A DNA stretch of 41,035 nt from a virus. Both the position numbers and the translations under genes were made by a program. Below, one piece after another: positions 17,358 to 38,710 of the stretch. Where the stretch lies: IMG/VR virus record IMGVR_UViG_3300048837_000668, positions 1 to 41,035 of that record; one strand, written 5' to 3'. The notes beneath the pieces are model-generated. The model was not told where the DNA came from, made no database searches, and saw only the letters and a program-made list of their open reading frames with translations. How positions within the stretch are numbered: the stretch's first letter is position 1; each line of letters opens with the position of its first letter.

Positions 17358-17532
17358 GCGCGTCGCCGAGCACCCGTTGCCATCGGTGGTCACCTTCGCG
17401 AAGGCTACCGGCTGCACGGCGGAGCACGTCCAGGCGGTGCTCGACGGCAAGCGGGGACCGAGCTGGAAGCTCCTCCGCGCGGTCGGTCTCACCCGGCGCG
17501 CCCCGCCGGCGCACTACTGGAGGGTCCGGTGA
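17311..17532 (+). CDS. Small helix-turn-helix-like protein
   Basis: 73 residues from GTG 17311, with a strong GGAGGGG just upstream. TLDQVREIIRERVAEHPLPS is a helix. ATGCTAEHVQAVLDGKRGPS and WKLLRAVGLTR then fit an XRE-like pattern, with a turn and recognition helix followed by 'GkR.Ps..lL.alGl'. It may bind DNA as a short regulator. The stop overlaps the next start (GTGA, 17529-17532). Confidence 0.5.
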   Translation: MSQPLTLDQVREIIRERVAEHPLPSVVTFAKATGCTAEHVQAVLDGKRGPSWKLLRAVGLTRRAPPAHYWRVR

Positions 17533-17987
17533 CGCCCCCGATGCCAGAGCACATCGAGGCCGAGATCGTGGAGCAGCTGCGCCGCGGTGTTCCGCGCATG
17601 CGACTCGCTGCCCGCTTCGGTTACAGCGACCGGAAGATCCGTCGCATCGCCAACACGCACGGCATCCCTGCGATCGCCGGGGCCCCCTCGCTCGATCGCC
17701 AGCTCCTGCCGAGCACCATGGCCGCCACGGAGGAGGAGCGTCGGGAACGCCGTCGGCTGTCCGATCGCCTCTACAAGGAGCGACTGCGTGAGCGGGAACG
17801 CCAGCAGCGCAACACGCGCCCTGCGCACTGGGGTCAGCCGCGCAGCGAGACGCCCGTTCAAGATCTCGCCGCGGGGCTCGCGTCGTGGCGATGCCACTGC
17901 GGCCGGGTCCAGTCGGGGACGCACTGCGCTGGTGGGCACGAAGCGCCATGGGTGCCGCTCACCAAGCCCCTCGAGGGAATGCAATGA
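17529..17987 (+). CDS. HTH protein with C-terminal zinc-like cluster
   Basis: 152 residues from GTG 17529 (GTGA overlap). The N-terminal third (EHIEAEIVEQLRRGVPRMRL, AARFGYSDRKIRRIANTHGI) is a resolvase-like HTH ('G....rlA.rfg.S...irrIa'). A strongly charged middle helix (EEERRERRRLSDRLYKERLR) follows, then a Cys/His cluster (WRCHCGRVQSGTHCAGGH) likely to bind zinc. A DNA-binding early regulator is the natural inference; no named family. It ends in an ATGA overlap. Confidence 0.5.
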   Translation: MTPPMPEHIEAEIVEQLRRGVPRMRLAARFGYSDRKIRRIANTHGIPAIAGAPSLDRQLLPSTMAATEEERRERRRLSDRLYKERLRERERQQRNTRPAHWGQPRSETPVQDLAAGLASWRCHCGRVQSGTHCAGGHEAPWVPLTKPLEGMQ

Positions 17988-21472: not shown

Positions 21473-21603
21473 GCAAGAGTCGTGCCACGCCCGACCCCCG
21501 GCGGGTCCTTCCCAGCCCATGTGGGGGTGGGTGACGCGGACCCTGCACCTCCGCGTTTCTGCCCCCTTTTGGAAGTCGTTGCTATTTCAGGAGTTACCGC
21601 ACA
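21473..21603. other. Gap before terminase: hairpin and possible cos/pac area
   Basis: 131 bases without a gene. GACCC (21493-21497) and GGGTC (21503-21507) form a 5-bp hairpin with loop CCGGC followed by CTT, a possible weak terminator. The rest includes a C-rich tract and the AGGAG ribosome site (21589-21593) of the terminase small subunit. Packaging sites commonly sit here, but I see no diagnostic cos. Confidence 0.35.
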
Positions 21604-22101
21604 ATGCCAGAAGTCGAGGTCACCCAGTCGGAGTTCGCCGAGCTCATCGGAGTCTCGACGCGGACCGTGTTCAACCTCCGCGATGCGGGGTTGAACGACT
21701 ACTGCGTGACCAAGGGCAAGTCCGTCAAAGTCCGCATCCCGAGCGGGATCCAGTGGTATGTGCGCTACAAGGAATCGATGGCGGCAGAGAAGTCCACGCC
21801 GTCCTCCCTCGCCCAGGCAGAGTTGGACTACGCGGTGGCGAGGGCGGAGGGGATGCGCGCGGACGTGGATCGGAAAAAGGCGAAGCTGATCGAGCGGGCG
21901 CTGATCGAACCGTGGGTCGGTGACATGCTCTCCCGAGTTCGGAGCCGACTGGATGCGCTGCCGGTGAAGATCGCGCAGGGTGTGACAGCCGAGAAGGAGC
22001 GCGATCGCCGCAAGCAGGCCGCAGCACTGGTGACCGAGGTGCTCGAGGAGCTGCGCCTCGGCCCGATGCCGACCGGCAACGAGGAAGAGGACGAGTCGTG
22101 A
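21604..22101 (+). CDS. Terminase small subunit (Nu1-like)
   Basis: 165 residues from ATG 21604, with AGGAG upstream. The first 60 residues (VTQSEFAELIGVSTRTVFNL, RDAGLNDYCVTKGK) form the winged-helix DNA-binding head of Nu1/gp1-type small subunits ('vsq.efA..lGVs.rTV.....Gl'). Residues about 75-110 (AQAELDYAVARAEGMRADVD, RKKAKLIERALIE) match the 'A...EA...r.kaeL...kkGel...e' helix common to Nu1 and DUF1441 proteins, which dimerises and contacts the large subunit. It recognises the packaging site and hands DNA to the motor. The stop overlaps the large-subunit start (GTGA). Confidence 0.8.
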   Translation: MPEVEVTQSEFAELIGVSTRTVFNLRDAGLNDYCVTKGKSVKVRIPSGIQWYVRYKESMAAEKSTPSSLAQAELDYAVARAEGMRADVDRKKAKLIERALIEPWVGDMLSRVRSRLDALPVKIAQGVTAEKERDRRKQAAALVTEVLEELRLGPMPTGNEEEDES

Positions 22102-24005
22102 TCGCGACGCTCGATCCCCGGCTCATCGAGATCGAGGCGCGTCTCTTCGAGGAGCACTTCGCTCCGAAGCCAGACCTGCCGCTGCCGGAGCACGCGCGGC
22201 GCTACCGGGTGCTCACCCGCGACACCTCGGCGGTGGCGGGCGCGTTCATCGCGAAGCCCTACCAGATCGAGCCGATGCGCGCCCTGGATGATCCGGACGT
22301 GCGGTCGGTGACGTGCGTCATGCCGGCGCAGGTGGGCGGCAAGACGGAGATCGGGCTGTGCTGGTTCCTCAAGAACGCCCACATCAACCCGGGTCCGATG
22401 CTCGCGGTCGAGCCGACGCTCACGATGGCGAAGGCGCTGAGCGAGGAGCGGATCGACACGATGTTCGAGAACGCCTGGGATCTGCGCCGACTGCTGGCGT
22501 CGAGCGGCACGAAGGGCAAGGGCAACCGGATCCGCTTCAAGCGTGGCGCGGGGTGGTCCATCACGGTCGTCGGTGCGCGGTCGGCGGCCGAACTGTCCAT
22601 GCGTCCCATTCGCGACGTCTGGTGCGATGAGCCTGACCGGTACCCGCTGAACGTCGGCGGCGAGGGCACCGTCGTCCAGTTGGCTGATGGTCGGACGCGC
22701 ACGTATCAGGATCGCAAGCGGCTGCTCACCGGCACGCCAGTGTACGAAGACCTGGCGAACTCGATCTGGGTGTACCACGTGCAGGGTAGCGGAGGCGAGT
22801 GGCACGTGCCCTGCCCGCTCTGCAGCGCGGAACAGCCGCTGGTGTTCGGGGACCGTGACACACCGTTCGGCCTGAAGTGGAAGAAGGATCGGCCGGAGAC
22901 CGTGGAGTACCTCTGTGCGCACTGCGGCAAGATGTTCTCGGAGCGGCACAAGGTGGCGATCAACCAGGCAGGATCCTACCTGCACGAGCGGCCAGAGCGG
23001 ACGACGCATCCGAGCTTCCACTTCGAGGCGGTGGCGAGCGAGACGGTGAGTTGGCCTGAGATCGTGATCGCCTTGCAAGAGACGCTCATGATCCCGGATA
23101 AGCTGCAGACGTTCCAGAACACCTGGCGCGCGCTGCCGTGGCGCGAGGGTGGGGTGTCGGTGGACCTGAAGCTGCTGCAGTCGCGGCGCCTGGCACCGGG
23201 CGTCGAGATGCCGAACTACGTGCACGTGCTGGTGGCGGGGATCGACGTGCAGCACACGCGCGTCGAGGTCGGGCTGGTGGGCTTCGGGCCCGGCGAACGG
23301 TCGTGGATGAAGGTCTACCGCATCGAGGGTGACACGTCGTCGATCAACTCGCCGATCTGGAAGGACGTGGACGCCCTGCTCGAGACGCCGGTGAAGCGGG
23401 CCGACGGCAAGGAGATGCGGATCCGGATCAGCGCGATCGACATCGGTGACCAGGCAGAGGTGGTGTCGGAGTACGTGCGGACCCGGAGCCGGCTGAACGT
23501 GCGCGCGGTGCGCGGCGTCGAGATCGAGGGCATGGTCGAGCCGGTGCGTCGGGCCCGGAAGAAGAACCGGTACGGCATCGAGTGGTGGCAGGCCAGCAAC
23601 CTGGTCACGAAGCGGGTGCTCTTCGGGCGGCTCGCGCGGGTATCGACGCCCGGCCCGGGCTACATCGAGTTCGATGGGTCCATGACGGATGAGATGCTGG
23701 AGCAGTTCCTGAGCGAGAAGTTGGTCAAGCAGAACGGGCGGCGGATCTGGCTCAAGATCAGCGGGCGCGCGAACGAGGCGATCGACCTCTGGCGCTACGG
23801 CTACGCGACGCTGTGGATGCTGGGCTCGAACATCCGGTCGAAGCTGATGAAGCTGGCAGAGGTGGACGAGGTCGAGGACGCCGAGACGCCCGCCGAGGTC
23901 GTGGAGAGCGTTGAGGTGGCGGAAGAGGCACCGGAGCCTGAGCCCGAGAAGCCGAAGCGCGTGCGGCGCCGGCGGGGTTCGTGGCTGGATCGGTTCCGCG
24001 GCTGA
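22098..24005 (+). CDS. terL: Terminase large subunit (GpA family)
   Basis: 635 residues from GTG 22098 (GTGA overlap). The ATPase half has a GpA-type Walker A-like loop VMPAQVGGKTE (74-84) and a Walker B VWCDEPD (174-180). Two CxxC pairs at about 239-242 and 273-276 are the zinc knuckle often seen in GpA proteins. The nuclease half begins at VAGIDVQHTRVEV (379-391), whose first Asp is the expected metal ligand. The protein ends in an acidic then basic tail (EEAPEPEPEKPKRVRRRRGS), probably for portal or small-subunit contact. It cuts concatemeric DNA and powers packaging into the prohead. Length is normal for the family. Confidence 0.95.
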   Translation: MIATLDPRLIEIEARLFEEHFAPKPDLPLPEHARRYRVLTRDTSAVAGAFIAKPYQIEPMRALDDPDVRSVTCVMPAQVGGKTEIGLCWFLKNAHINPGPMLAVEPTLTMAKALSEERIDTMFENAWDLRRLLASSGTKGKGNRIRFKRGAGWSITVVGARSAAELSMRPIRDVWCDEPDRYPLNVGGEGTVVQLADGRTRTYQDRKRLLTGTPVYEDLANSIWVYHVQGSGGEWHVPCPLCSAEQPLVFGDRDTPFGLKWKKDRPETVEYLCAHCGKMFSERHKVAINQAGSYLHERPERTTHPSFHFEAVASETVSWPEIVIALQETLMIPDKLQTFQNTWRALPWREGGVSVDLKLLQSRRLAPGVEMPNYVHVLVAGIDVQHTRVEVGLVGFGPGERSWMKVYRIEGDTSSINSPIWKDVDALLETPVKRADGKEMRIRISAIDIGDQAEVVSEYVRTRSRLNVRAVRGVEIEGMVEPVRRARKKNRYGIEWWQASNLVTKRVLFGRLARVSTPGPGYIEFDGSMTDEMLEQFLSEKLVKQNGRRIWLKISGRANEAIDLWRYGYATLWMLGSNIRSKLMKLAEVDEVEDAETPAEVVESVEVAEEAPEPEPEKPKRVRRRRGSWLDRFRG

Positions 24006-24295
24006 TGTACCTCGCCCAACTCCTCCACGCGCGCACGAGTCGCCAGCTGAGCGGCACCGACTGGTCGGTGCTGGTGCACCTGCAGCTCGAGCTCGACCCG
24101 GTCGAGTTCCGGCCGGTGAAGATCAACGCGATCCGGCACGAGCTCGGATTGAAGTTCTCGCCCACGGCGCGTTCGGTGCGCCGCCTCATCGAGTTCGGGT
24201 ACCTCGGGGAGGGTGGGCGCCACGAGGGACTGCGCACCTACCGCCTGCGCGTCCCTGCTCCGCGTGACAGATCTGTCACCACGCGCGCCGCATAA
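24005..24295 (+). CDS. Small winged-helix protein between terminase and connector
   Basis: 96 residues from ATG 24005 (TGATG junction). LSGTDWSVLVHLQLELDPVE, VKINAIRHELGLKFSPTARS and VRRLIEFGYLGEGGRH follow the winged-helix layout: helices, a recognition helix, then a 'G.y.RhY.l' style wing (here GLRTYRLRVP). Such proteins are related to the N-terminal domains of phage O-type initiators and MarR-like regulators. The 3' end encodes DRSVTT through a perfect DNA palindrome (24264-24279) that recurs at 38244-38259, so self-binding is an attractive idea. A DNA-binding gene inside a packaging module is unusual; it may have been inserted there as a regulator. Confidence 0.55.
   Translation: MYLAQLLHARTSRQLSGTDWSVLVHLQLELDPVEFRPVKINAIRHELGLKFSPTARSVRRLIEFGYLGEGGRHEGLRTYRLRVPAPRDRSVTTRAA
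24262..24280. promoter_or_regulatory. Palindromic site, copy 1
   Basis: GCGTGACAGATCTGTCACC, whose inner 16 bases (24264-24279) are a perfect palindrome. The same 19 bases recur at 38242-38260, and both are followed one base later by CGCG. The site is near the 3' end of a winged-helix gene. It could be a dimer-binding site or, as RNA, a 6-bp hairpin with a GATC loop without a U-run. Confidence 0.65.
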
Positions 24296-24334
24296 CCCCT
24301 ACTCCACAACCCACATCCCAGCGAACGTGCGGCC

Positions 24335-24895
24335 ATGACGGCGCGCGCCACGACGATCCCCGCGTCTCTGACTGCAGGGGATACCTGGGAATGGGAGCGC
24401 TCGCTCCCCGATCACCCTGCCAGTGATGGCTGGGTGCCGAGCTACGCGATCGTGGGCGCGCTGAAGCTGACGTGGGATCCAGCGTGGGCGACCGCTGAGG
24501 GTGCGCTGCACGTGGTGACGGTCCCGATGGCGAAGACGGCGGAGCTGGGCGCGGGTGGCCCGGTGCGATTCGTCGAGATGGTCACGCTGTCGGGTGTGCG
24601 GAAGACGCTGGGGACGTTCGAGCGCGTGGTGGCACCCGATCCGGCAGGCTACGAGGCCGGAGACGGGATCAGCTGGGCGCGGCGGATGCTCAAGGTCGTG
24701 GACGACTTCCTCGAAGGGCATCTCGCCGACGGCGTCCAGTACCAGATCATCGGGACGCGGCAGCTGCAGCACATCCCGCTGCCTGAGCTGTTGCAGTTCC
24801 GGCGGGACCTGAAGGCGCAGGTGGCGCGTGAGATGGGACGCGGGAACGGCCCGCTTGGCCGCCCGATTCGCTTCACGATGCCGGGTGTGCAGTGA
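24335..24895 (+). CDS. Head-tail connector protein, gpW-like C-terminus
   Basis: 186 residues from ATG 24335. The N-terminal half is beta-rich (TTIPASLTAGDTWEWERSLP, VGALKLTWDPAWATAEGALH) and resembles small phage Ig-like or decoration folds. The C-terminal half (MLKVVDDFLEGHLADGVQYQ, IIGTRQLQHIPLPELLQFRR) has the gpW signature: helix, short hairpin with 'G.R...' and helix with 'L..R..l...'. gpW joins head and tail and sits just ahead of the portal gene in lambda, as here. The fused N-terminal domain is an addition over gpW (68 residues). No clear ribosome site; the stop overlaps the portal start (GTGA). Confidence 0.6.
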   Translation: MTARATTIPASLTAGDTWEWERSLPDHPASDGWVPSYAIVGALKLTWDPAWATAEGALHVVTVPMAKTAELGAGGPVRFVEMVTLSGVRKTLGTFERVVAPDPAGYEAGDGISWARRMLKVVDDFLEGHLADGVQYQIIGTRQLQHIPLPELLQFRRDLKAQVAREMGRGNGPLGRPIRFTMPGVQ

Positions 24896-26406
24896 CGATC
24901 CGGGATTGGCTCATTGACAAGCTGCAGCCGGGACCGAAGCGCCAGCGTCGGCGCCACTGGCAGGCCGCTGATCGCAACCGCATCACCCGAGGCTGGGTGG
25001 ACGGACTGCTCTCGGCGGACGCGGAGCTCTGGGATAGCCTGCCGACGCTCCGCGGGCGTTCGCGGCAGTTGGTACGCGACAACCCGCACGCGGCCGCCGC
25101 GGCGCGGGTCTGGGTCGACAACGTCGTGGGACCGAATGGGCTGACGCTGCACCCGCTGGTGACGCGAGGTGATCAGTCGCTCGACTCGGAGGCGAACGCG
25201 GAGATCCGCCGCTTCTGGAGGGCGTGGGGCACGCGATCGGTCTGCACCGTGGATCGGCGGCATAGCTGGTTCGATGTAGAGCGCTTGGCGGTGCGGTCGG
25301 AGTTCGTCGACGGCGAGTTCCTCGCGATCGAGCGCACGGGCCGCGGGGTGAATGAGTTCGGGTATGCACTGCAGCTGCTCGATCCCGACCAGTTGGACGC
25401 GAGTTTCAACAGGACGGCGACCAAGGGCCGCAACGAGATCCGGATGGGCGTGGAAGTGACGGAGTGGGGCGAGGCGGTGGCGTACCACCTCTGGCCTGGG
25501 CACCCGCAGGACATGGTGGCACGCGGTCGTGAACGGATGATCGTGCCGGCGGCGCAGGTGCTCCACTACTTCCAGGCGCTCCGTCCTGGGCAGACGAGAG
25601 GGATCCCACGTCTCGCACCGGTGATGAGCCGTCTCAAGATGCTCGATCGGTACAGCGAGGCGGAGCTGCTTGCCGCAGCGGTCGGTGCATGCAGCTCGGT
25701 GCACTACGAGCAGGACGAGCACTCGGAGCTCGACGAGGACGACGGTGACCCGGCCGGGGAGATCCCCGTGGAGCTGGAGCCCGCAATGGCGCGGCTGCTC
25801 CCGAAGGGCGTGAAGGCGGTGTTCAACAAGGCGGAACACCCGGCGACCGCCTACGGGCCGTTCGTGGATGTCGAGCACCACGCCGTGGGCGCCGGGCTCG
25901 GGATCGCGCACAGCACGCTCACAGGCAACCTGAATGGCGCGAACTACGGCTCGTTGCGGGACGGCACGATCAAGGAGCGCGATGTCTATCGGGTGGAGCA
26001 CCGTCGCCTGCCGGAGCACTTCCACTCGCGGGTGTTCCGCGCAGCACTGAAGAACGGCGTGCTGTACGACGCAGTCGAGATCAAGGGATCGGATTGGCGG
26101 CGGTATGCGCTGCACGCGTTCGCGGGACGAGGCTGGGCGTGGGTGGATCCGTGGAAGGACCTGAAGGCCGCGGAGCTCGAGCTGGCGCTGCGCCTCACGA
26201 CCCGGAGCCGGTTGGCGCTGGAGAATGGCCGGAGCTTCGAAGAGCTCCTGCAGGAGTGGGATCAGGATACCGAGCTGGCGAAGGCGTGGGGGGTGACACT
26301 CAACGACCCGATGCCAACCGGCAGCGCCAAGGCGGCGGCAGTAGTCGAGGACGCCGAGGACGACGACGAGGAAAAGGAGACCACGGATGACGACGACAGC
26401 GACTGA
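24892..26406 (+). CDS. Portal protein (lambda family)
   Basis: 504 residues from GTG 24892 (GTGA overlap). N-terminal 'LRGRSRQLVRDNPHAAAAARVWVDNVVGPNG' is the lambda-portal signature (R.R.R.L.rNn..a..a......nvvG.G). Further family marks are VRSEFVDGEFLAIERTGRGV, the 'Q.L.pD..' strand LLDPDQLDA, GVEVTEWGEAVAYHLW, then VLHYFQALRPGQTRGIPRLA, 'P.......l.......e.......a..a' and a wing with NYGSLRDG. Portal forms the dodecameric vertex through which DNA passes and to which terminase docks. The C-terminus is acidic (EDAEDDDEEKETTDDDDSD) and overlaps the capsid gene by 20 bases. Confidence 0.93.
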   Translation: MTIRDWLIDKLQPGPKRQRRRHWQAADRNRITRGWVDGLLSADAELWDSLPTLRGRSRQLVRDNPHAAAAARVWVDNVVGPNGLTLHPLVTRGDQSLDSEANAEIRRFWRAWGTRSVCTVDRRHSWFDVERLAVRSEFVDGEFLAIERTGRGVNEFGYALQLLDPDQLDASFNRTATKGRNEIRMGVEVTEWGEAVAYHLWPGHPQDMVARGRERMIVPAAQVLHYFQALRPGQTRGIPRLAPVMSRLKMLDRYSEAELLAAAVGACSSVHYEQDEHSELDEDDGDPAGEIPVELEPAMARLLPKGVKAVFNKAEHPATAYGPFVDVEHHAVGAGLGIAHSTLTGNLNGANYGSLRDGTIKERDVYRVEHRRLPEHFHSRVFRAALKNGVLYDAVEIKGSDWRRYALHAFAGRGWAWVDPWKDLKAAELELALRLTTRSRLALENGRSFEELLQEWDQDTELAKAWGVTLNDPMPTGSAKAAAVVEDAEDDDEEKETTDDDDSD

Positions 26407-28354
26407 GGCGGAGTACCTCGCCGAGCAGCTGATCGCGAAGGGCCGCGGGTGGCGCAGCCGCGAGATGATCGTGGCGCTCCGCGAGCCGGAGGAAGGCGAG
26501 GCGCAGGACGATCGGATCCCGGTGCGCCTGTCTTCCGAGCGCGAGGTGCACCGGTACGACTGGTGGGAGGACGAGAGCTACATCGAGGTCCTCGACCACG
26601 GCGCCGTCGACCTGAGCTATGCGCGGGACGGGTTGCCGTTCTGCCTGGATCACTGGACGGCGAAGCAGGTCGGCCTGATCGAGGACGTGCGCGTCGTCGG
26701 GAAGGAGCTGCATGGCATGGTGCGCCAGGGCAGCCACCCGGATGCGGAGTGGGCCTTCAAGGACATTCGCAACGGCATCCGGAAGAAGGTGTCGATCGGC
26801 TACCTGCAGCTCAGCTACAAGGTGGCGAACCCGAAGCGGAAGGCTGGGGAGCTCGAGATCCGGCGATACGGCTTCATGGTGTTGGAAGGCTCAACAGTCT
26901 GCATTCCGGCGGACTACGAGGTGGGATTCGGTCGCGGCTTGCTCAGGGCGCTGCGGCTCGGTGGAACGAACAGCCCTGAAACGGCCCCCAGTGGCCAGGA
27001 GCGCACGATGAAGACCGATGCAGCCATCGCGGCCCCGCCCGCCGAGGCCGAGGGCGAGGAGCGGGCCAACACGGAGCAGCTGCGGGTGCGGCTCCTGGAC
27101 GGGCTCGAGAGCCTGGGCGCAAGCGATGCCCAGATTCGCAAGTGGATCACCAGCGGCGCCAGCGTGAAGGACGCCAAGGAAGAGCTCAAGCGGGCAGCGG
27201 ACACCGCGGCCGAGGAGTTCAACACGCGGACGCGCGTGGCCACCGCTGGTGCGCCCGACGTCTTCGTGCGCTCGCCGAAGGGCGAGATCGGCCGTGACGG
27301 CAACGTGAAGACGGATGCCGACACCGGCGGGTTCGACTCCGAGGGCGAATTCTGGCGCGCGATCGCGAACGCCGGCATGCCGGGCAGCCGGGTCGACCGG
27401 CGCCTCCTGCGCGACGTGACTGGCCAGAGCACCGGCGTCTCGTCCGAGGGCGGCTTCGGCGTGCCGACCGCGATCGTGACGGCGACCACCGCCAACATGT
27501 TCGAGAACGGCCGGATCATGTCCCGGGTCAACCGGATCCCGGCGACCGCCCCCTCCGTCAAGCTCATGCGCGTGGATGAGGTCAGCCGCGTGGATGGGCA
27601 GCGCGGTGGCGGGGTCGTGTCGTACTGGGTGGGCGAGGGCGGGGCGGCCGAGGCCATCGCGAAGGTGAAGTGGCGCGAGCACCTGCTCGACAAGAAGAAG
27701 ATCATCGCGATCGCGCGGGCCACCGAGGAGCTGCTCGAGGACGCGCCGTCGATGGTCAGCGAGGTGCAGACCAAGATCGGGGAGGAACTGGAGTTCCGCT
27801 TCGAGAAGGCGATCGCCACGGGCAACGGCAACGGGCAGCCGATCGGCTTCATGGGGCACCCGGCGCAGGTCGCGGTCGCCATCGAGTCGGGCCAGAACAT
27901 CGCCAACACGAACACGCACATCGCGGCGAACGTCGCCACGATGATGTCTCGCGTGCCGGAGTCGCTCTGGAACTCGATCGTGTTCCTCGCGAACCAGTCG
28001 CTGTTCCCGAAGATCATCACGGCGACGCTGGGCAACCAGCCGCTCTACCTGCCGGGTGGGCTCGGCGGACGGCCGTACGACACGCTGCTCGGGCGGCCGC
28101 TGATCTTCACCGAGTTCCAGGAAGCGGTCGGCACCGTCGGTGACTTCGTCTGCGCGGCGCTCAGCCAGTACGACGTGCTCTACGGCAACGGCCCGAAGGC
28201 GTCGGTCTCGGCCCACGTCCGGTTCGACTACGACGAGATGTCGTTCAAGTGGACGGACCGGATCGATGGCCAGCTCTCCTGGCGCAAGGCGATCACCCCG
28301 CACAAGGGCTCCGACACGCTCACGCCTGTCGTTGCGCTGGCGGCCCGCTCGTAA
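26387..28354 (+). CDS. Fused prohead protease and major capsid protein
   Basis: 655 residues from ATG 26387 with AAGGAG upstream (26374-26379). Residues about 25-190 are an HK97-type prohead protease: 'LPFCLDHW....VGLIEDVRVV', then a helix leading to KKVSIGYLQLSYK, with the His of LDHW and the Ser of VSIGY as likely catalytic pair, and a VLEGSTVCIPAD strand. Residues about 200-310 are a charged, coiled-coil scaffold-like delta region. Residues about 320-655 are the HK97 capsid fold (GGFGVPTAIVTA, LEDAPSMVSEVQTKIGEELE, 'AIATGNGNGQPIGFMG', LWNSIVFLANQSL, 'LLGRPLIF'). An in-frame ATG at 27008 preceded by CAGGAG (26996-27001) would make a 448-residue scaffold-plus-capsid product on its own, comparable to lambda's nested C/Nu3. 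Confidence 0.9.
   Translation: MTTTATEAEYLAEQLIAKGRGWRSREMIVALREPEEGEAQDDRIPVRLSSEREVHRYDWWEDESYIEVLDHGAVDLSYARDGLPFCLDHWTAKQVGLIEDVRVVGKELHGMVRQGSHPDAEWAFKDIRNGIRKKVSIGYLQLSYKVANPKRKAGELEIRRYGFMVLEGSTVCIPADYEVGFGRGLLRALRLGGTNSPETAPSGQERTMKTDAAIAAPPAEAEGEERANTEQLRVRLLDGLESLGASDAQIRKWITSGASVKDAKEELKRAADTAAEEFNTRTRVATAGAPDVFVRSPKGEIGRDGNVKTDADTGGFDSEGEFWRAIANAGMPGSRVDRRLLRDVTGQSTGVSSEGGFGVPTAIVTATTANMFENGRIMSRVNRIPATAPSVKLMRVDEVSRVDGQRGGGVVSYWVGEGGAAEAIAKVKWREHLLDKKKIIAIARATEELLEDAPSMVSEVQTKIGEELEFRFEKAIATGNGNGQPIGFMGHPAQVAVAIESGQNIANTNTHIAANVATMMSRVPESLWNSIVFLANQSLFPKIITATLGNQPLYLPGGLGGRPYDTLLGRPLIFTEFQEAVGTVGDFVCAALSQYDVLYGNGPKASVSAHVRFDYDEMSFKWTDRIDGQLSWRKAITPHKGSDTLTPVVALAARS
27008..28354 (+). 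other. Nested internal start for capsid-only product
   Basis: ATG 27008 is in frame with the fusion and has CAGGAG 6 bases upstream, an unusually good ribosome site for the middle of a gene. The product would begin MKTDAAIAAPPAEAEG and include delta and capsid regions but no protease. Virions need hundreds of capsid subunits but only a few proteases, so a nested start would set the ratio. Confidence 0.55.
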
Positions 28355-28426
28355 CCGCTGGTGGGGTGGGGTGGCATCACGCTGCCTCACCCTGCCCTGC
28401 CCTGACCGATCAGAAAGGAAGTACCC

Positions 28427-28903
28427 ATGTTCCCGTTCACCCTTCCCGAGCAGGCCGTACTGGTCGGCGTGATGCCGCCGGCGACCGACGCTGCGGGGCG
28501 CACCGGCGACTACATCTCGCTGAAGCACCTGCACCGCGCGTTCGTGGTGTTCTTCATCAACCAGGGGCACGCCACCGTCGTGCCGTGCTCGATCAGCAAG
28601 GCCACCGGCGTCACCCCTGCGGGTGCGACGGCAATGACCGAACTCGTCCCGATCTGGACGAGCCTCGACCAGACCGCCGGGCACCAGTTCACCCGGCAGC
28701 CGAATGCGGCGTCGTTCAGCACCGACGCGGCACTCAAGCCGAAGATCGTGATCTTCGAGATCGTACCCGGCAGCCTCGGTGAGACCTACGACTGCATCGC
28801 GCCGGTGACGGCCGCGTCGAACGTGGGCAACATCACGTCGGCGCTGATCTACGGCGTCCCGCGCATCGCGGGCCGCGAGACCCCCGACGTCCTGACGGAC
28901 TGA
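28427..28903 (+). CDS. Putative capsid decoration or minor head protein
   Basis: 158 residues from ATG 28427, with a strong AAGGAA ribosome site (28415-28420), as expected for an abundant virion protein. The protein is beta-rich without charged clusters (FPFTLPEQAVLVGVMPPATD, DYISLKHLHRAFVVFFINQG, IVIFEIVPGSLGETYDCIAP) and ends in a short tail. It directly follows the capsid gene after a 72-base gap containing G-rich and C-rich arms. A gpD-type decoration protein occupies this place in lambda; the fold itself is not recognisable here. Downstream gene is coupled at TGATG. Confidence 0.55.
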   Translation: MFPFTLPEQAVLVGVMPPATDAAGRTGDYISLKHLHRAFVVFFINQGHATVVPCSISKATGVTPAGATAMTELVPIWTSLDQTAGHQFTRQPNAASFSTDAALKPKIVIFEIVPGSLGETYDCIAPVTAASNVGNITSALIYGVPRIAGRETPDVLTD

Positions 28904-29040
28904 TGAGCTCCAAGGAGACCCCGCGGGAGGAGACCCCGGCAGCGCGTGAGAGCGTGCCGCCGGTGTCCTCGACCGTGGGGTTTCCTGCGCGAGTCCGCTG
29001 GCTGCCTGATGGTCGGCCGGCGGGGATGCGGACCCGATGA
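28903..29040 (+). CDS. Small virion-operon protein, unknown
   Basis: 45 residues from ATG 28903 (TGATG junction), ending in an ATGA overlap with the next gene (29037-29040). Composition is Glu/Pro/Arg (SSKETPREETPAARESVPPV, VRWLPDGRPAGMRTR), mostly disordered. Support comes from the tight spacing. It may be a linker-like or head-completion accessory peptide. Confidence 0.4.
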   Translation: MSSKETPREETPAARESVPPVSSTVGFPARVRWLPDGRPAGMRTR

Positions 29041-29351
29041 ACACCGCAGCACGGGAGCGCGAGACGCAGCGCGTGCGGCGGATGATGAAGAGTCCCCGTA
29101 TGGGGACGGTGGTCTACGGGCCCGAGGGATGCCTGCACGGCTTCCTCGACGACGTGGACCGCGAGGAAGACGTCGAGGTGGGCCGTCGACTCGACAACGT
29201 GAAGCGGCTGCAGGTCTGTACCGACGACCTCGGCGCGATCACGAAAGGGACGGTCCTGACGGTGGATGATATCGCGTACCGAGTCCACGATCGGCCCCGC
29301 AAGATCGACGATGGCGTGGTGAGCATGGTCTACCTGGTACCGGTGCTGTGA
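29037..29351 (+). CDS. Head-tail joining protein (gpFII-like candidate)
   Basis: 104 residues from ATG 29037. Following helical residues (REREQTRQV-like, here RERETQRVRRMMKSPRMGTV), the sequence runs VYGPEGCLHGFLDDVDREED and later 'GAITKGTVLTVDDIAYRVHD....DDGVVSMVYLVPVL'. The final strand-rich segment 'G..lt.dg..Y.V.......g.g...l.L' matches lambda FII and related head-tail adaptor proteins, which close the portal for tail docking. It sits at the right position, between capsid and tail terminator genes. Confidence 0.65.
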   Translation: MNTAARERETQRVRRMMKSPRMGTVVYGPEGCLHGFLDDVDREEDVEVGRRLDNVKRLQVCTDDLGAITKGTVLTVDDIAYRVHDRPRKIDDGVVSMVYLVPVL

Positions 29352-29875
29352 TCTCCCAGGCACAGCGACTGATCGCTGCGGCGCTGGCGCACGACACGCG
29401 GGGCGTAAACGCGAAGCTCGCCGCGCTCGCGACGGCGGAGTACTTCGGCACGGACGACACGCCGCCAGATGTGACGGTGGTGGCCGCGGTGGATGACGCC
29501 TTTGCGGCGGTGCTGGATGCGCCGGACACCCTGCCGAGTCTCTCGGTGCTGTTCCACCAGGCGACGGGGTTGTCGCCGTTCGACAGCGCGGCGCAGCAGG
29601 ACGGGGTCTTCACGTTCATCGTGCGCTACGACGCGACGGAGGACGACCCGATCGCGTTGCACCGCAACTGCGCCCACACGATGCGCGCGGTGATGCTCTC
29701 CCTGGCGGCGTGGTTCCGCGGGGCGGGCGCTGGTGAGGGAAAGGTCTTGGAAGGCATACAGGTGATCGGGCCCGGGCAGGTGCGGATCGGGGATCCCCCG
29801 ATGGTGAGCCAGGAAGCGGCGCCGATCACGTTCTCGCTCTATCTCGAATTGGAACTGCAGGACATCGCGACCTGA
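29348..29875 (+). CDS. Tail terminator or tail completion candidate
   Basis: 175 residues from GTG 29348 (GTGA overlap). Opens with helices (SQAQRLIAAALAHDTRGVNA, KLAALATAEYFGTDDTPPDV), a strand (SLSVLFHQATG), then FTFIVRYDATEDDPIALHRN, CAHTMRAVMLSLAAWFRG, and a final strand pattern ITFSLYLELELQDI. The order 'alpha, beta, F.v.y.......A......v.a.l..l..........v......v.....l.leL.....' fits phage tail terminators (gpU/gp17-type). Its place just before the tube gene agrees. An alternative is a neck protein. Confidence 0.55.
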   Translation: MISQAQRLIAAALAHDTRGVNAKLAALATAEYFGTDDTPPDVTVVAAVDDAFAAVLDAPDTLPSLSVLFHQATGLSPFDSAAQQDGVFTFIVRYDATEDDPIALHRNCAHTMRAVMLSLAAWFRGAGAGEGKVLEGIQVIGPGQVRIGDPPMVSQEAAPITFSLYLELELQDIAT

Positions 29876-29896
29876 GCACACCCAACGGAGGATGCA

Positions 29897-30208
29897 ATGG
29901 ACATCATGACGATCAACGGGGAGCCGGTCGAGGTGCCTGCCGACCTGCTGGAGAAGTCCCGAGCCGTGGGCCTGCCTGACGGGCATGCCTACGCGAAGTG
30001 GTTCGCGGAACAGGACGCCCCGCACGCGAAGGCGAAGCTGCAGGCGAGCGGCCTGAAGGCGGGCGAGGTGACGTGCACCGGCTTCGGGGGCGCGATGCTC
30101 ACGAGCGACGTGGAGCGCGCCATTCAGGCACGCGACGAGGCGAAGGCCGCCAAGGCCGCGCCTGCCGAGACCAAGGCCGCTCCGGCCGACACCCCGCAGG
30201 AGGGCTGA
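29897..30208 (+). CDS. Small tail-operon protein, unknown
   Basis: 103 residues from ATG 29897, with GGAGG at 29886-29890. DIMTINGEPVEVPADLLEKS, RAVGLPDGHAYAKWFAEQDA precede an Ala/Lys-rich helical tail (RDEAKAAKAAPAETKAAPAD) that looks disordered. It lies directly ahead of the tail tube gene and has a strong ribosome site, so is probably needed in quantity. No family recognised. Confidence 0.45.
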   Translation: MDIMTINGEPVEVPADLLEKSRAVGLPDGHAYAKWFAEQDAPHAKAKLQASGLKAGEVTCTGFGGAMLTSDVERAIQARDEAKAAKAAPAETKAAPADTPQEG

Positions 30209-30211
30209 GTC

Positions 30212-31240
30212 ATGGCATACGTGCCCAAGAAGCTGGCGGTCTACTCCGCCGAGATGAAGGAAGAGACCACGTTCGGGACGCTGGCGGCTCCGGCTGCAGC
30301 GGACGACGCGTTCTACCTCCAGTTCGACAGTGACGACGTCCCTGAGATGGTGACGGAGGAGTTCGAGTTCGACGGCAACCTCGGACCGAACGCCGTGGGC
30401 TATGGCCCGAACCTGCAGGTGGCGCCCAGTGGCAAGGCCGCCAAGGTGCCGCTCAGCTGCTACTTCCGTGGCCCGGGTGCGGCGTACGCGGCCGGCGTCT
30501 TCGCGAAGAACCGCTGGCACCTGGCGATGAAGATCGCCGGGTACGTACCGACGGGGGACTTCACCGCCAGCTCCGAGAAGTTCACCTTCGTCCAGGGCGC
30601 GCCGAGCGTCACGCCGACGTCCGCCTCGATCTACTGCTGGGCCAAGCAGCTGCTCGGCGAGGCGAAGATGGAGCGGGTGGCTGTGCTCGCCGCCCTCGCC
30701 AACCTGAAGGTGATGGCGCAGGACCCGAAGCCGGCCAAGTGGATGTTTGAGGTTGCCGGGATCTACTCTGGCAACCCCACGGACGAGACCTTCACGGCGC
30801 CGACGCTTGCCGCGACGCCGCTGCCGCCGCTGTCCAGTGCCACGACGTTCGAGTACGGCGCGTTCACCACCGCGGTGGTCTACGGTTGGGAATTCGACCT
30901 CGGTCGTGACATCTCGAGCGCGCGCGTCCCGCTGAACAACGCCGGGGTGCACCTCGGCTTCGTGGCGGGGGGCTACGTCCCCACGATGAGCGTCACGATC
31001 GAGCAGACGGCGCTCGCGACGTGGAACCCCTACGCGATCCGCGACGCGGCGGGAACGGCGGCGCTGGAGCTGGTGTGCGGCACGGTGCAGTACAACCGGT
31101 TCACCCTGAACGGCCCGCAGGCCCAGCTCGTCGAGGTGAAGCAGGGCAACCGGGGGAAGATCCCGACCTGGACGCTGAAGTTCCTGCTCCCGCCGTCGAC
31201 CCCTGCCGGGACCGACTCGCACAACTGGGTCGTGGACTGA
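30212..31240 (+). CDS. Major tail tube protein
   Basis: 342 residues from ATG 30212. Beta-rich throughout, with features of large siphophage tube proteins: 'FYLQFDSDDVPEMVTEEFEFDGNLGPN' near the N-terminus, 'GKAAKVPLSCYFRG' and 'FTASSEKFTFVQGAPSVTPTSA' (like 'sYTpsS......t...y.dG....l.ga.g.......'), YCWAKQLLGEAKMERVAVLA and a GIYSG (F.g.l) strand. The last third (STAFEYGAFTT-like, here SATTFEYGAFTTAVVYGWEF) gives 'dlg..i..r.d.n...G.....v..r....s...e'. It lies ahead of the frameshifting chaperone and the tape measure, the fixed place of the tube gene. Polymerises as hexameric rings around the tape. Confidence 0.8.
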   Translation: MAYVPKKLAVYSAEMKEETTFGTLAAPAAADDAFYLQFDSDDVPEMVTEEFEFDGNLGPNAVGYGPNLQVAPSGKAAKVPLSCYFRGPGAAYAAGVFAKNRWHLAMKIAGYVPTGDFTASSEKFTFVQGAPSVTPTSASIYCWAKQLLGEAKMERVAVLAALANLKVMAQDPKPAKWMFEVAGIYSGNPTDETFTAPTLAATPLPPLSSATTFEYGAFTTAVVYGWEFDLGRDISSARVPLNNAGVHLGFVAGGYVPTMSVTIEQTALATWNPYAIRDAAGTAALELVCGTVQYNRFTLNGPQAQLVEVKQGNRGKIPTWTLKFLLPPSTPAGTDSHNWVVD

Positions 31241-31243
31241 TCC

Positions 31244-31666
31244 GTGGCGTTCGACTTCCGCAGCTTCGCGGCCGCGCACGAGCCCTGGGCGTTCACGGAT
31301 GCCCGGGGCCGGACGTGGACACCAGCGCGTGAGCTGTCGGCGCCGGAGGCGATCCGGTGGACCATCCGCTTCGAGCGGGTCAAGTCGCTCGAAGACTGGT
31401 ACCGGGTCACCTCCCGGCTGATCCGTCGCCTGTTCCCCTGGCACATCAAGTACTGGTGGTCAGGGGATCCAGCGGCGGCGTTCAATGAGATGCCGATCGA
31501 GGCCCGCAAGGCCGCGCTCGATGACCTTTTTCGTCACCGGTCGCGGACGACGTCGACGCCGCGCCCGAGCCCCAACCCGACGACGACCCCGAAACCATCC
31601 TCCGCCGACTCGCCGCCGATCCCTACACCCGGCCCGAGCGTAGCCTCCGACTTCACGCGGCCCTGA
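31244..31666 (+). CDS. Tail assembly chaperone, unshifted product (gpG-like)
   Basis: 140 residues from GTG 31244. The first 96 residues (FDFRSFAAAHEPWAFTDARG, RFERVKSLEDWYRVTSRLIR, LFPWHIKYWWSGDPAAAFNE, MPIEARKAALDDLF) form a compact alpha/beta and helical domain. After the T-run at 31527-31531 the zero frame turns into a Pro/Thr/Ser tail (TPRPSPNPTTTPKPSSADSP) that looks unselected, whereas the -1 frame gives ordinary protein for 119 residues. This is the arrangement of lambda gpG and gpG-T: both products bind the tape measure and recruit tube subunits, then leave. Confidence 0.75.
   Translation: MAFDFRSFAAAHEPWAFTDARGRTWTPARELSAPEAIRWTIRFERVKSLEDWYRVTSRLIRRLFPWHIKYWWSGDPAAAFNEMPIEARKAALDDLFRHRSRTTSTPRPSPNPTTTPKPSSADSPPIPTPGPSVASDFTRP
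31525..31532 (+). promoter_or_regulatory. Slippery site for -1 ribosomal frameshift
   Basis: The zero frame reads GAC CTT TTT CGT. A one-base slip back on the run CCTTTTTC lets Leu/Phe tRNAs re-pair, and the ribosome continues in TCG TCA CCG to TGA 31888-31890. The following sequence is GC-rich and able to fold, as needed for pausing. Confidence 0.65.
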
Positions 31667-31890
31667 GCCATGTGGCGCGTGTCTTTCCGTCGGTGGTCTG
31701 CAATCCCGGGGGATGGCGGACGCCGGATGGGTGGATCCCGTTCCGGGTGCTGCCGGCGTGGTACGGGATGATCCCGTCCGCGCTGGCATTGGACCGGCTC
31801 TCGATGTTCCGCGCGGTGCGCATGGGCTTCGGGGGCGAGGGAGTTCCTGAAATGGTCGCCGAAGACGAAGAGAGGATGCTGCCCGAATGA
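31531..31890 (+). CDS. Tail assembly chaperone, frameshift extension (gpT-like)
   Basis: Reached by -1 frameshifting near 31531; the full fusion product is about 215 residues (96 from the upstream gene, 119 here). It starts with an acidic linker (SSPVADDVDAAPEPQPDDDP), then ETILRRLAADPYTRPERSLR, LHAALSHVARVFPSVVCNPG and a C-terminal GWIPFRVLPAWYGMIPSALA, a Trp-rich segment. There is no start codon with a ribosome site near 31531. An internal ATG at 31669 exists but would remove the first 46 residues. The stop overlaps the tape-measure start (ATGA). In lambda the T part binds the tape measure. Confidence 0.7.
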   Translation, partial: SSPVADDVDAAPEPQPDDDPETILRRLAADPYTRPERSLRLHAALSHVARVFPSVVCNPGGWRTPDGWIPFRVLPAWYGMIPSALALDRLSMFRAVRMGFGGEGVPEMVAEDEERMLPE

Positions 31891-34829
31891 TTCGCCCCGC
31901 TGTTGAGGTCGTCCTCAGCCTGGTGGACAAGATCTCGGCCCCGCTGCGCGGTACGTCGCAGGGGGTGCGTGGCATGTTCGGTGACATCGCGAAGAGCATC
32001 GTCCCGATCGTCAACGTCGGGGATATCGCCGCGATGGCGATGCGGAAGCTGACCGACGTCGTTCGGGGGTCCTTCGCCGCATTCGACGAATACCGCACTT
32101 CGCAGATCAAGCTCGAGGGGACTGCGAAGATGACCGGGGTTGCCCTGTCGACGCTCACCAGCATTGCCAAGGAGGCCGAGGACCGCTTCCGGATGAGCAA
32201 GACGCAGTCCGCAGACTTCGCCGTGGAGGTTGTCAAACTGGCCACAGCGGCCGGTGATGTCGGGAAGGCCGCCCCACTCCTGAAGGCGTTTCTGGATATC
32301 GGCGCCGCCCGAGGGCTCACGGCCGAACAGACGCTCAAGGCGGTGCAGCAGTCGATTCTGGGGATTGACGAAGGGACCGACAAGCTCTTCGGCAAGAACC
32401 CGAGCGGCCTCTGGGCGGACTATGCCAAGGTGCTCGGCGTGAGCGCGGGCAAGTTCGGTGAACTCGAGAAGAATCAGGCCCTCGCCTATGTGACCCTCGA
32501 AATGGGCACGAAGGTCGTCGGAACGATGGAAACTCGACTCGGCGAGACCGTTGGCCAGTTGCAGGCGACCTCGAATGCGACCCAGATGTTCCAGACCCGC
32601 CTGGGGGAGCTGCTCGATCCGGTCCGTCGTGTGACCGCTCGCATTATCGAGGGGTTTGCGAACATCGGCATGGCGACCATCGGCACCTTCGAGGTCATCG
32701 GCACATCTGCTCTGGCCATCATCCAGGGAACGTGGAATATCGTGCGTGGCACTCTGGGCGGCGCTTCGAGCCTGCTCGGCACGATCATCAACACGGCCGC
32801 CAAGGTTGCCGGGCCGCTCCGCGACGAGTTCGAGGCAGTGGGACAGTCGCTCCAGTCGTGGGGCACCGGGGTGTTCGAGTCGTCCGAGCGGAACCTGACG
32901 CTGATCGGCTCCGCTTGGAAGACCCGAATGGGCGAGATCTATGGCATCTCACAGCAGACGGAATCGGACATCGTCGCTGTGCAGGCCGCAGGCAGCGCGC
33001 AGCGCGAGGAGATTAGCGCCGCGGAGGCCGCGCGCAGGAAGAAGGACGCCGAGGAGGCCGCCAAGGCGTTCGACGCGATCGCCACCTCGTTCCGGGAAGC
33101 GTACGACCCCGACGAGAACCCCGCCATCACCAAGGCGCGCGCCGCGATCGAGAAGATCAACGACGCGCTGGTGACGCAGAAGGGGCTCTCGGCGGAGCAG
33201 CGCACGGAGCTGCAGCGGATCCGCCAGGCATACGAGGACAACATTGACTCGCTGGAGATGGGGCTCGGCATCGAGCGCGAGCTCGTGCGCGTGCGCGACC
33301 TCCCCTTCCAGGAGGACAAGCTCCGGAGCCTGAACCGCCTGCTCGAGGAGTCGATTCGGTTCCGGGACCAGGAGGGCCAGTCGGCCGAGACCGTGAAGTT
33401 CTTCACGGCCCAGACCGAGGCGATCCAGAAGGAGATCAAGGCCGAGCTCGGCCAGAACGTCCAGCTGCAGCGATCGGTGGCCGATGCCGCGCGGATGACG
33501 CAGTACGCCTATGCCCTGATGTCCGGAGATGTCGAGACGCTGGCGCGGATGCAACGCGAGGCGGCGGAGGCGGCCGGGGAGGGTGCGGGCCACGTCGAGA
33601 AGCAGCAGAAGGAGATGTACAACGCGGCGCGCGGCGCGGTCTCGCTGGCGAAGGAGATGGGGGTCATCAACGCCGAGTCGGCGGGCGTCCTCAACAACGT
33701 CATCACGCTGTCGGAGACCCTGAAGGACGGACTCAGCAACCTGTCCGCCGGTGGGCTGATCGGCGCGGTGGGTGCGGTGGCCGGCATCCTCGGCTCGATC
33801 TTCTCCAAGAACCCGGCGCACGAAGCGCTGATGCGCCGCAACAACGACGCCCTGCAGGCGCTCACCCGGAGCAACGGCCTGCTGTTGCGCGCGCAGAGCA
33901 CCGGTGCGCAGGTCGAAGCCGCGAAGGGTGCGCTGCCGGGGTTGGAGTCGCTCACGTTCGGGGGCTCTGGAGCCATTGATGCCACGCGGTTTCAGGGCTT
34001 CCGCGCAACCCTGCAGGCGCAGGGCCTCACGATCACGGACGCCGAGCAGCTCGCGAAGGATATGGGCGTCGATCTCGGCATCGAGAATGGCCGCATCAGC
34101 AAGGAAGCGATCGAGGCGTTCGTGCGGGGTCTCAAGACCGCGAATTTCGGCTCCTTCGAGGACTCGTTCGGCGGCTTCCTGGACGAGCTCGACTTCCAGA
34201 GTGGCCTCGTCGGCGGGTTCTCCCCGACCGAGCAGCTGAACCGCATCAAGGAGGGGCTGGGCAAGGACTTCGGCAGCTCCGCGCTCAGCGGGGCGTTCGG
34301 CGGCGTGGACCTCACGACGGCGGAGGGGCGGGCCACGCTGATGCAGCGCCTGCTTGGCATCGGCCAGAACATCGGCTCACTCACCGACGGCGAGCGCGGT
34401 GGGCTCACGGGCAGCGAGTTCACCGACATCCTCACGCGCATCACCGGGATCCTGCGGGACATGGAGACGGCGCCGCCGGGGGGTGCGCCGGCGGGTGGCA
34501 CGGCACCAGACACCGGGGCCAGTGCGGTGCCGACCACGGGTGGCGTCGCGGTGCCAGGTGCCCCGGCCGGACTGAACGCCGGGATCCCGGTGGGCGACAG
34601 CGGCCTGATGATCAGTCACCTGGGCAAGCTGGTGGAACAGGGCACCGCGATGATCTCGCTGCAGACCCGGATCGCCGTCGCCACGGAGGCCGCGGTCGGG
34701 CGGCCCAGCGTCGCGATCGGCACCATCAATGCCAGCACCGTGGACGCGGTGGAGGGTGCGGTCATCAAGGGACTCGACGAGGCGTTGCGCATCGAGCGCG
34801 ATCTCGGTGTCCTGACGCGGGGAGGGTGA
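31887..34829 (+). CDS. Tape measure protein
   Basis: 980 residues from ATG 31887 (ATGA overlap). It is the largest gene, mostly helical with coiled-coil regions (ITSFREA..., AAEAARRKKDAEEAAKAFDA, QTEAIQKEIKAELGQNVQLQ). N-terminal 'EVVLSLVDKISAPLRGTSQG' and 'AFDEYRTSQIKLEGTAKMTG' are typical of lambda-H/TP901-type tape measures. Hydrophobic segments occur near residues 260-300 (TIGTFEVIGTSALAIIQGTW, SLLGTIINTAAKVAG) and 615-640 (AGGLIGAVGAVAGILGSIFS), expected to insert in the host membrane during ejection. At about 0.15 nm per residue it implies a tail near 145 nm. The C-terminal part has a Gly/Pro-rich linker and a helical end. Confidence 0.93.
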   Translation: MIRPAVEVVLSLVDKISAPLRGTSQGVRGMFGDIAKSIVPIVNVGDIAAMAMRKLTDVVRGSFAAFDEYRTSQIKLEGTAKMTGVALSTLTSIAKEAEDRFRMSKTQSADFAVEVVKLATAAGDVGKAAPLLKAFLDIGAARGLTAEQTLKAVQQSILGIDEGTDKLFGKNPSGLWADYAKVLGVSAGKFGELEKNQALAYVTLEMGTKVVGTMETRLGETVGQLQATSNATQMFQTRLGELLDPVRRVTARIIEGFANIGMATIGTFEVIGTSALAIIQGTWNIVRGTLGGASSLLGTIINTAAKVAGPLRDEFEAVGQSLQSWGTGVFESSERNLTLIGSAWKTRMGEIYGISQQTESDIVAVQAAGSAQREEISAAEAARRKKDAEEAAKAFDAIATSFREAYDPDENPAITKARAAIEKINDALVTQKGLSAEQRTELQRIRQAYEDNIDSLEMGLGIERELVRVRDLPFQEDKLRSLNRLLEESIRFRDQEGQSAETVKFFTAQTEAIQKEIKAELGQNVQLQRSVADAARMTQYAYALMSGDVETLARMQREAAEAAGEGAGHVEKQQKEMYNAARGAVSLAKEMGVINAESAGVLNNVITLSETLKDGLSNLSAGGLIGAVGAVAGILGSIFSKNPAHEALMRRNNDALQALTRSNGLLLRAQSTGAQVEAAKGALPGLESLTFGGSGAIDATRFQGFRATLQAQGLTITDAEQLAKDMGVDLGIENGRISKEAIEAFVRGLKTANFGSFEDSFGGFLDELDFQSGLVGGFSPTEQLNRIKEGLGKDFGSSALSGAFGGVDLTTAEGRATLMQRLLGIGQNIGSLTDGERGGLTGSEFTDILTRITGILRDMETAPPGGAPAGGTAPDTGASAVPTTGGVAVPGAPAGLNAGIPVGDSGLMISHLGKLVEQGTAMISLQTRIAVATEAAVGRPSVAIGTINASTVDAVEGAVIKGLDEALRIERDLGVLTRGG

Positions 34830-34830
34830 G

Positions 34831-35592
34831 ATGTCGGCTGTGCTGAAGATCGCCGGTGCGGACGCCAGCAGCCATGGGGTGTGGATCTCCGGCGAGCCGC
34901 GCGAATGGCTTGACGCGCCACGCGCCAGCTTCGGGGTCTCGCCGCTGACGGGCCGCATCGGCGGCATCGTGGCATCCACCTACGAGGTGCGAGCGCGCGA
35001 ACCGATGATCCCGATCCGGATCATTGGGGACACGCCCGCGGAGCGCGAACTCAATGAGCAGTGGCTGAAGAGCCACTTCCTGCGCGAGGTCGTGGTCCAG
35101 ATCGACGACGGCACCACACCGCGCCAGATCCGTGGTCGCCTGCAGTCGGTGGCGCTGGCTCCGCTCAAGCATGTGCAGGCGCGGGTGTCCTATGGTGCCA
35201 TCACGATGCTGTGCGGCGATCCCCGTTGGCAGGCGCTGACGCCGACGAGTCTGGTGCTCTCCGGCGAGACGGCGATCCCGATGGGCAACGCGGTCATTGA
35301 GAACTGGGCCCTCACGATCGAGGGCGACTTCGTCGATGCCACGATCGTGATCAAGAACGGGGACGGCGACACGCTCCACACGATGGTCTGGACCGGGGAC
35401 AGCAACGACACCGACCTGGTGATCGACGCCTCGACGGGGCGGGTGCTGCTCGATGGCGTCACCAGCGCGTTCGCGACCTACGTGGGCGGGTTCCCATCGC
35501 TGGATCCCTACGACGAGCCGACGATCACGGTCACGGTGGCGTCAGGCAGCGTCGACGCGGCAACCCTCGCCTATCGCGAGCTCTGGTACTGA
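34831..35592 (+). CDS. Distal tail protein (Dit-like)
   Basis: 253 residues from ATG 34831, one base after the tape-measure stop. The layout fits Dit: an N-terminal half beta-barrel-like region ('GVWISGEPREWLDAPRASFG', 'VAEVRAREPMIPIRIIGD'-like, 'RQIRGRLQSVALAPLKHVQA'), a 'W..L......l......l....' ring-forming core, then a beta-sandwich C-terminal domain (NAVIENWALTIEGDFVDATI, VIKNGDGDTLHTMVW, GVTSAFATYVGGFPSLDP) with the closing 'v......a...YRELWY' strand. Dit forms the hub ring that joins tube and tip. Placement between tape measure and Tal-like gene supports it. Confidence 0.65.
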   Translation: MSAVLKIAGADASSHGVWISGEPREWLDAPRASFGVSPLTGRIGGIVASTYEVRAREPMIPIRIIGDTPAERELNEQWLKSHFLREVVVQIDDGTTPRQIRGRLQSVALAPLKHVQARVSYGAITMLCGDPRWQALTPTSLVLSGETAIPMGNAVIENWALTIEGDFVDATIVIKNGDGDTLHTMVWTGDSNDTDLVIDASTGRVLLDGVTSAFATYVGGFPSLDPYDEPTITVTVASGSVDAATLAYRELWY

Positions 35593-38231: not shown

Positions 38232-38241
38232 GCGCCGCAGA

Positions 38242-38260
38242 GCGTGACAGATCTGTCACC
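38242..38260. promoter_or_regulatory. Palindromic site, copy 2
   Basis: GCGTGACAGATCTGTCACC, identical over 19 bases to 24262-24280. The 16-bp palindrome occupies 38244-38259, 12 bases after the tail-tip stop and 76 bases before the holin-like gene, in the 104-base gap that opens the lysis block. It may regulate lysis genes or act as a processing hairpin. Confidence 0.65.
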
Positions 38261-38335
38261 TCGCGCAGCCTCTCCCCCCTGCCCTCAACCGAGGCACGGC
38301 GCGAAGCTCCGGGAGACTCAACACCCGGAGCACGC

Positions 38336-38710
38336 GTGCCATCAGACCTTTGGGACTTCCTGCAGCTTATCGGGCTCTGGGACTTCCTGCAGCTTATCGG
38401 GCTCGTCGGCGCCATTGTCTACGGCGCCGGCAAGTTGGTCGGCGCGATGACGACCACGACCGCGACCCTCAAGGCTGGCCTCGACAAAGTGAGCCACGAC
38501 CTCGAGAGCCTCAGTCGAGACGTCAACACCCTCGGTCAGCTCGCCAGCTCACTCCAAGAAACCATCGCAGCGCTCGCCACTCGCGTCGACGCGATCGAGC
38601 GCGCGGGAAGCTCCGCAGCCGCCGCGGCACAGCAGGCGTCGGAAGCGGTGCGCCGGAAGGCACGGGCCGCCAAGGGGCGGACGAAGCCGAAGCCGACGAG
38701 GAAGCGGTGA
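38336..38710 (+). CDS. Holin-like membrane protein
   Basis: 124 residues from GTG 38336, GGAG upstream. Residues about 5-37 are hydrophobic (LWDFLQLIGLWDFLQLIGLV, then GAIVYGAGKLVGAM), giving one membrane helix or a hairpin. A coiled-coil stretch follows (LKAGLDKVSHDLESLSRDVN, LGQLASSLQETIAALATRVD), then Ala-rich and strongly basic C-terminus (RRKARAAKGRTKPKPTRKR). One N-terminal membrane segment, coiled coil and basic tail is a known holin layout, and the endolysin gene starts at its stop. The nine-residue unit LWDFLQLIG is tandemly duplicated, lengthening the hydrophobic segment. Confidence 0.6.
   Translation: MPSDLWDFLQLIGLWDFLQLIGLVGAIVYGAGKLVGAMTTTTATLKAGLDKVSHDLESLSRDVNTLGQLASSLQETIAALATRVDAIERAGSSAAAAAQQASEAVRRKARAAKGRTKPKPTRKR
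38348..38401 (+). repeat. 27-bp tandem duplication in the holin-like gene
   Basis: Two copies of a 27-bp unit (38348-38374 and 38375-38401) differ at one base, the third position of the first codon (CTT versus CTC). They encode LWDFLQLIG twice. The near identity shows a recent duplication, in frame, within the membrane anchor. Confidence 0.9.

Follow-up and report, generated by a model that had tools for sequence, protein, structure and literature searches.

Two identical palindromic sites before the head and lysis genes of a phage: putative operators for a late regulator

Late gene order and the paired sites

The window analysed here is the whole 41,035-nt virus record IMGVR_UViG_3300048837_000668, in which all confidently called genes lie on the + strand. 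The genes for the terminase small subunit (21604-22101) and large subunit, TerL (22098-24005; phrog_15, E 1e-155), are followed by a gene for a 96-aa winged-helix protein (24005-24295), whose start overlaps the TerL stop, and then, after a gap of 39 bp, by the genes for a head-tail joining protein (24335-24895; phrog_5774, E 2e-22), the portal (from 24892) and the major head/protease protein (from 26387), with tail genes up to 38231. The last large gene of this structural block (35592-38231) has no PHROG or Pfam match and is a tail gene by position. A gap of 104 bp (38232-38335) separates it from a probable lysis-cassette gene (38336-38710), the product of which has weak DUF948/coiled-coil matches and a putative N-terminal membrane segment followed by a coiled coil, and from an endolysin gene of the Peptidase M15-like type (38707-39159; phrog_894, E 4e-13). 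The record carries a direct terminal repeat of 127 bp (1-127 = 40909-41035) and is therefore very probably a complete (circular) genome, so that sites counted in the window are counted for the whole phage.

A 19-bp sequence, GCGTGACAGATCTGTCACC, occurs in two exact copies, at 24262-24280 (site 1) and 38242-38260 (site 2), neither assigned to a strand, and the core of each copy is a perfect 16-bp dyad, GTGACAGATCTGTCAC (24264-24279 and 38244-38259). This confirms the first-pass annotation, which had described identical palindrome-bearing sites, one inside the 3' end of a winged-helix gene and the other in the gap before the lysis genes: site 1 occupies the last codons of 24005-24295, and site 2 is entirely non-coding in the called frames. 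The end of the dyad is 55 bp from the start of the head-tail gene at site 1 and 76 bp from that of the first lysis-side gene at site 2, with the dyad centres ~63 and ~84 bp upstream of the respective start codons; thus the gene that follows closely after each dyad is the one that opens a module. Identical dyads hence precede the head-tail gene and the lysis genes, where separate transcription units are putative.

The annotation had also noticed no third copy, and an exhaustive search of the whole window, on either strand and with up to 3 mismatches, found none (0.02 chance matches expected); nor did the 16-mer have any further match in the window at up to 3 mismatches (0.13 expected). When flanks are included, the two copies agree at 24/25 positions (GCGTGACAGATCTGTCACC-A/T-CGCGC). 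The pair stands alone among dispersed exact repeats of at least 19 bp in the window, the remaining long repeats being the terminal repeat and one perfect 27-bp tandem duplication (38351-38404) in the first lysis-cassette gene, which makes the N-terminus of its product read WDFLQLIGL twice.

The simulated controls were 150 order-3 Markov genomes and, for single palindromes, shuffled genomes. One 16-bp palindrome is unremarkable (1.2 expected per shuffled genome) and a 19-bp repeat by itself is mildly unusual (some repeated 19-mer in 5 of the 150 genomes); repeat and palindrome combined are far beyond chance, since a repeated 16-bp perfect palindrome was seen in 0/150. A repeated 16-bp palindrome was likewise absent from ~0.97 Mb of related phage loci, Rfam gave no match, and the dyad sequence was not found in the literature searched. 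We regard the site pair as real and non-random, and a putative regulatory role for it as sensible.

Similarity continues downstream of the sites (26/56 matches, P 0.006) and is probably mostly a matter of composition, since the P value weakens to 0.03-0.10 without the CGCGC flank. Upstream, the motif GGTGGGYGCCA is present at 24212-24222 and 38192-38202, in register, 50 bp before both sites; it has no other exact copy in the window, and with up to one mismatch 7 are found against 3.4 expected.

A DNA site or an RNA element

The symmetry of the dyad includes its four central bases, which would be an unpaired loop in an RNA hairpin. When the core was held fixed and real flanks were compared with shuffled ones, the real flanks did not lengthen the RNA stem significantly at either site 1 (P 0.57-0.72) or site 2 (P 0.16-0.33), and the two copies are identical, with no compensatory change. 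For these three reasons the sequences favour recognition as double-stranded DNA over an RNA stem.

Our preferred reading, to which we give a probability of about 0.5, is that the sites are paired operators at which one dimeric DNA-binding protein would regulate the head and lysis blocks. The copies are exactly identical, perfectly dyadic and unique in the genome, and they sit closely ahead of the genes that open the two blocks. The symmetry through the centre, the identical copies, the module-boundary positions and flanks that lend no support to an RNA stem all count for this reading; counting against it are the lack of a recognisable -10 box, the absence of close relatives from the collections searched, the location of site 1 inside a coding sequence and the C-rich tracts after the sites, which can equally be read as an RNA feature. 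A -10-like hexamer at the expected distance was not seen by eye at either site, and no sigma-70-like promoter was predicted in 21500-41035, with the proviso that a sigma-70 model may not suit the host.

As operators, the sites could function as follows. A homodimer would bind both dyads and set the initiation of a head/tail transcript (from 24335) and of a lysis transcript (from 38336), acting on promoters that would lie within the short leaders; activation seems likelier than repression. If each dyad were centred at -43.5, as for Mor and GIL01 gp6, transcription would be predicted to start near 24315 and 38295, giving leaders of ~20 nt (head/tail) and ~41 nt (lysis).

The main rival, distinctly less probable in our judgement and yet a serious contender, is an RNA element: the transcript would fold into a 6-bp stem capped by a GAUC loop, with unpaired C-rich sequence behind it, and this element would separate the packaging, structural and lysis messages. 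It could act as a U-less or Rho-assisted partial terminator, as a processing or stability site, or as a nut-like antiterminator site. Hairpins are predicted at the sites (-12.4 and -20.3 kcal/mol), both of which lie at or past the end of a gene and run into C-rich, G-poor sequence: the leader from site 1 to the head-tail gene (24281-24334, + strand), where the 40-nt window from 24280 ranks 3 in the genome for C over G, and the tract past site 2 (38261-38292, + strand), where the 40-nt window from 38251 ranks 4. The same 16-mer is the core of longer hairpins in several bacterial genomes (L109, L097, L129, L101 and L092), one with a T run after it, and U-less hairpins with partial termination have been reported in GC-rich mycobacteria (PMC5335608). 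We keep this reading because of the C-rich tracts after both sites, the lack of an evident -10 box and these known U-less hairpins.

However, a scan found no intrinsic terminator at either site, a U tract is absent at both, and strong termination would keep transcription from reaching the head genes; moreover, an RNA needs neither full identity without compensatory change nor a self-complementary loop. The RNA role raised in the first-pass annotation is accordingly a possible one, weakened by flanks that extend the stem no further than chance. In phage lambda, the nut/boxB elements are near-identical short hairpins at two places in one genome, and the window likewise has two hairpin-capable copies; in contrast to nut, the hairpin at site 2 has no boxA-like element visible by eye, the GAUC loop is self-complementary, and the positions are late, not early.

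Other features of the leaders are separate from the dyads. In the same gap as site 2, a strong hairpin (38293-38340, + strand; -28.8 kcal/mol, z -4.8) covers both the Shine-Dalgarno sequence (38327-38330) of the 38336 gene and its GTG start, a start region that ranks second strongest among 42 genes tested; the folding model suggests translational control of a lysis-cassette gene. At 24288-24333, GCCGCAT pairs with GTGCGGC round a C-rich loop directly ahead of the head-tail ATG, a start that has no Shine-Dalgarno sequence. Elsewhere, ~1.5 kb at 4465-5970 is without a convincing gene, and C-rich, G-poor composition reaches its genome-wide extreme there, near 4488-4570, for stretches of both 60 and 78 nt.

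The winged-helix protein and the slot after TerL

If the sites are operators, the protein encoded upstream of and overlapping site 1 is the likeliest ligand, with the odds somewhat in its favour. Its winged-helix assignment, made from a Pfam HTH_27 match (E 9e-5; 23.1 bits vs a cut-off of 22.2), appears real though marginal. The domain spans residues 15-82 and site 1 encodes residues 86-92 of the C-terminal tail; the site codes for sequence beyond the domain, and conserving it as a DNA site could therefore place little constraint on the fold. HTH_27 is the sole Pfam match, the protein falls outside the Mor family (PF08765), it has no PHROG or NCBIfam match and no LexA match in Pfam or NCBIfam, and its fold prediction from the single sequence (pLDDT 62.5, no PDB match) is too poor to use. 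The first-pass suggestion that a regulator, possibly this protein, coordinates the late block holds up insofar as a dimer-bound site fits best and the winged-helix call stands; no computed result links the protein to the dyad DNA. Alternative ligands are a host regulator or a protein with an N-terminal helix-turn-helix (17529-17987, + strand), which matches phrog_836, 'late transcriptional activator', at E 0.0017 and HTH_28 below the cut-off, and has no Mor match.

Searches of IMG/VR with TerL, with the 879-aa structural protein and with the winged-helix protein, of GTDB genomes with TerL, and of phages and plasmids at the DNA level turned up no close relative. The best TerL identity anywhere searched was ~33%, a homologue of the winged-helix protein was not found in the searches, and the site is absent from 80 distant TerL loci. 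Among distant relatives with a recognisable head-tail gene, this gene comes directly after TerL in most. Of the IMG/VR relatives, L060 and L082 match the head-tail gene with the highest significance (35% and 34% identity), and both carry a gene in between: in L060 a Mor-family gene (2640-2960; Pfam Mor, 31.7 bits vs a cut-off of 24.9; phrog_532, late transcriptional activator, E 7e-11), and in L082 (1801-2064) probably another, with a match below the cut-off. Because of these Mor-family proteins, the slot after TerL is a plausible home for late regulators, and the role of the window protein as one of them is putative. L082 also has an inverted repeat with 11-bp arms at 2077-2106, in the gap before the head gene.

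Two known systems offer partial parallels. Mu C binds dyads at Plys, PI, PP and Pmom (PMC4287176, PMC4461284), and the Mor dyad extends from -51 to -36, centred at -43.5 (PMC4287176). In Mu, one dimeric phage activator works through similar dyads of ~16 bp at more than one late promoter, those for lysis and for the head being separate (PMC4461284, PMC4287176), an arrangement that the window pair would resemble; a Mor-family gene also occupies the slot after TerL in L060 and probably in L082. Unlike in Mu, the protein in the slot is an HTH_27 winged helix, not Mor, the dyad sequence is another, no promoter elements were recognised and binding is putative. GIL01 gp6 is a small phage winged-helix protein that activates a late promoter, for virion and lysis genes, from an upstream palindrome centred at -43.5 (PMC6182141), and the window protein resembles it in being small, phage-encoded and winged-helix. 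They differ in that gp6 is a truncated LexA homologue acting on the site GaCACA-TGTGaC at one promoter, whereas the window has two sites of another sequence and its protein has no LexA match. By analogy, the pair would work like the Mu C sites or the GIL01 gp6 site, with a protein outside either family.

A bolder proposal, which we advance tentatively and would not bet on, is that of a new class of late regulator. In this scheme a winged-helix protein of 96 aa, encoded between TerL and the head genes, would read a 16-bp dyad that lies partly in its gene and recurs ahead of the lysis cassette, and would have independently replaced the Mor-type activator that distant relatives carry in this slot. 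If right, this would be a simple switch of one protein and two identical sites timing assembly and lysis, in a phage lineage without close relatives, and it would suggest that late regulators from unrelated families have settled repeatedly in the slot after TerL.

The same word in other genomes and the lesser alternatives

Another possibility, which we consider unlikely, is that the phage acquired the operator of a host regulator, for example of the TetR type, so that its late genes would answer to the state of the host. In nine Paraburkholderia/Burkholderia species, the exact 16-mer lies within a longer dyad of 20 bp, TTGTGACAGATCTGTCACAA, flanked by a TetR gene and an MFS gene (L098 at 5293, L107 at 1555 and seven more Burkholderiaceae loci; TetR_N, E 3e-14), where TTGTGACAGATCTGTCACAA is a probable TetR operator; a TetR neighbour accompanies the dyad in the Paraburkholderia loci only. 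However, the 16-mer is found in 49 bacterial contigs in 257 Gb of genomes (near the ~60 expected by chance for even base composition), nine of which represent this one conserved intergenic region, and the invariance of the core was built into the search. The phage lacks the outer TT/AA that the Paraburkholderia dyad has, and none of the window proteins scanned with Pfam has a TetR match. Judged from its contexts, the 16-mer can be part of either a hairpin or a probable operator for a protein, and its occurrence alone is not decisive. Among viruses, the 16-mer was found in one unrelated contig, inside a coding frame; its 14-mer core occurred exactly once in each of 61 viral stretches, and a one-mismatch copy was present in 4/42 searched records, some of them iteron-like and not paired operators.

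It is very improbable that the pair reflects chance similarity or a recent functionless duplication: a palindrome alone is expected and repeated 19-mers do arise in simulation, but their combination did not, the positions match two module boundaries, and the core is intact while the flanks have diverged.

Least probable of all is a recombination, packaging or replication site, given just two isolated copies 14 kb apart and the prospect that exchange between direct copies would remove the structural genes; the recombination role proposed in the first-pass annotation was rejected because neither an integrase or resolvase (among the proteins scanned) nor an array was found. What speaks for a site of this kind comes from one IMG/VR contig (L158), where an iteron-like cluster of TGACAGAT-type and TGACAGATTTGTCA-like direct and inverted repeats (12060-12280) adjoins a putative replication protein gene.
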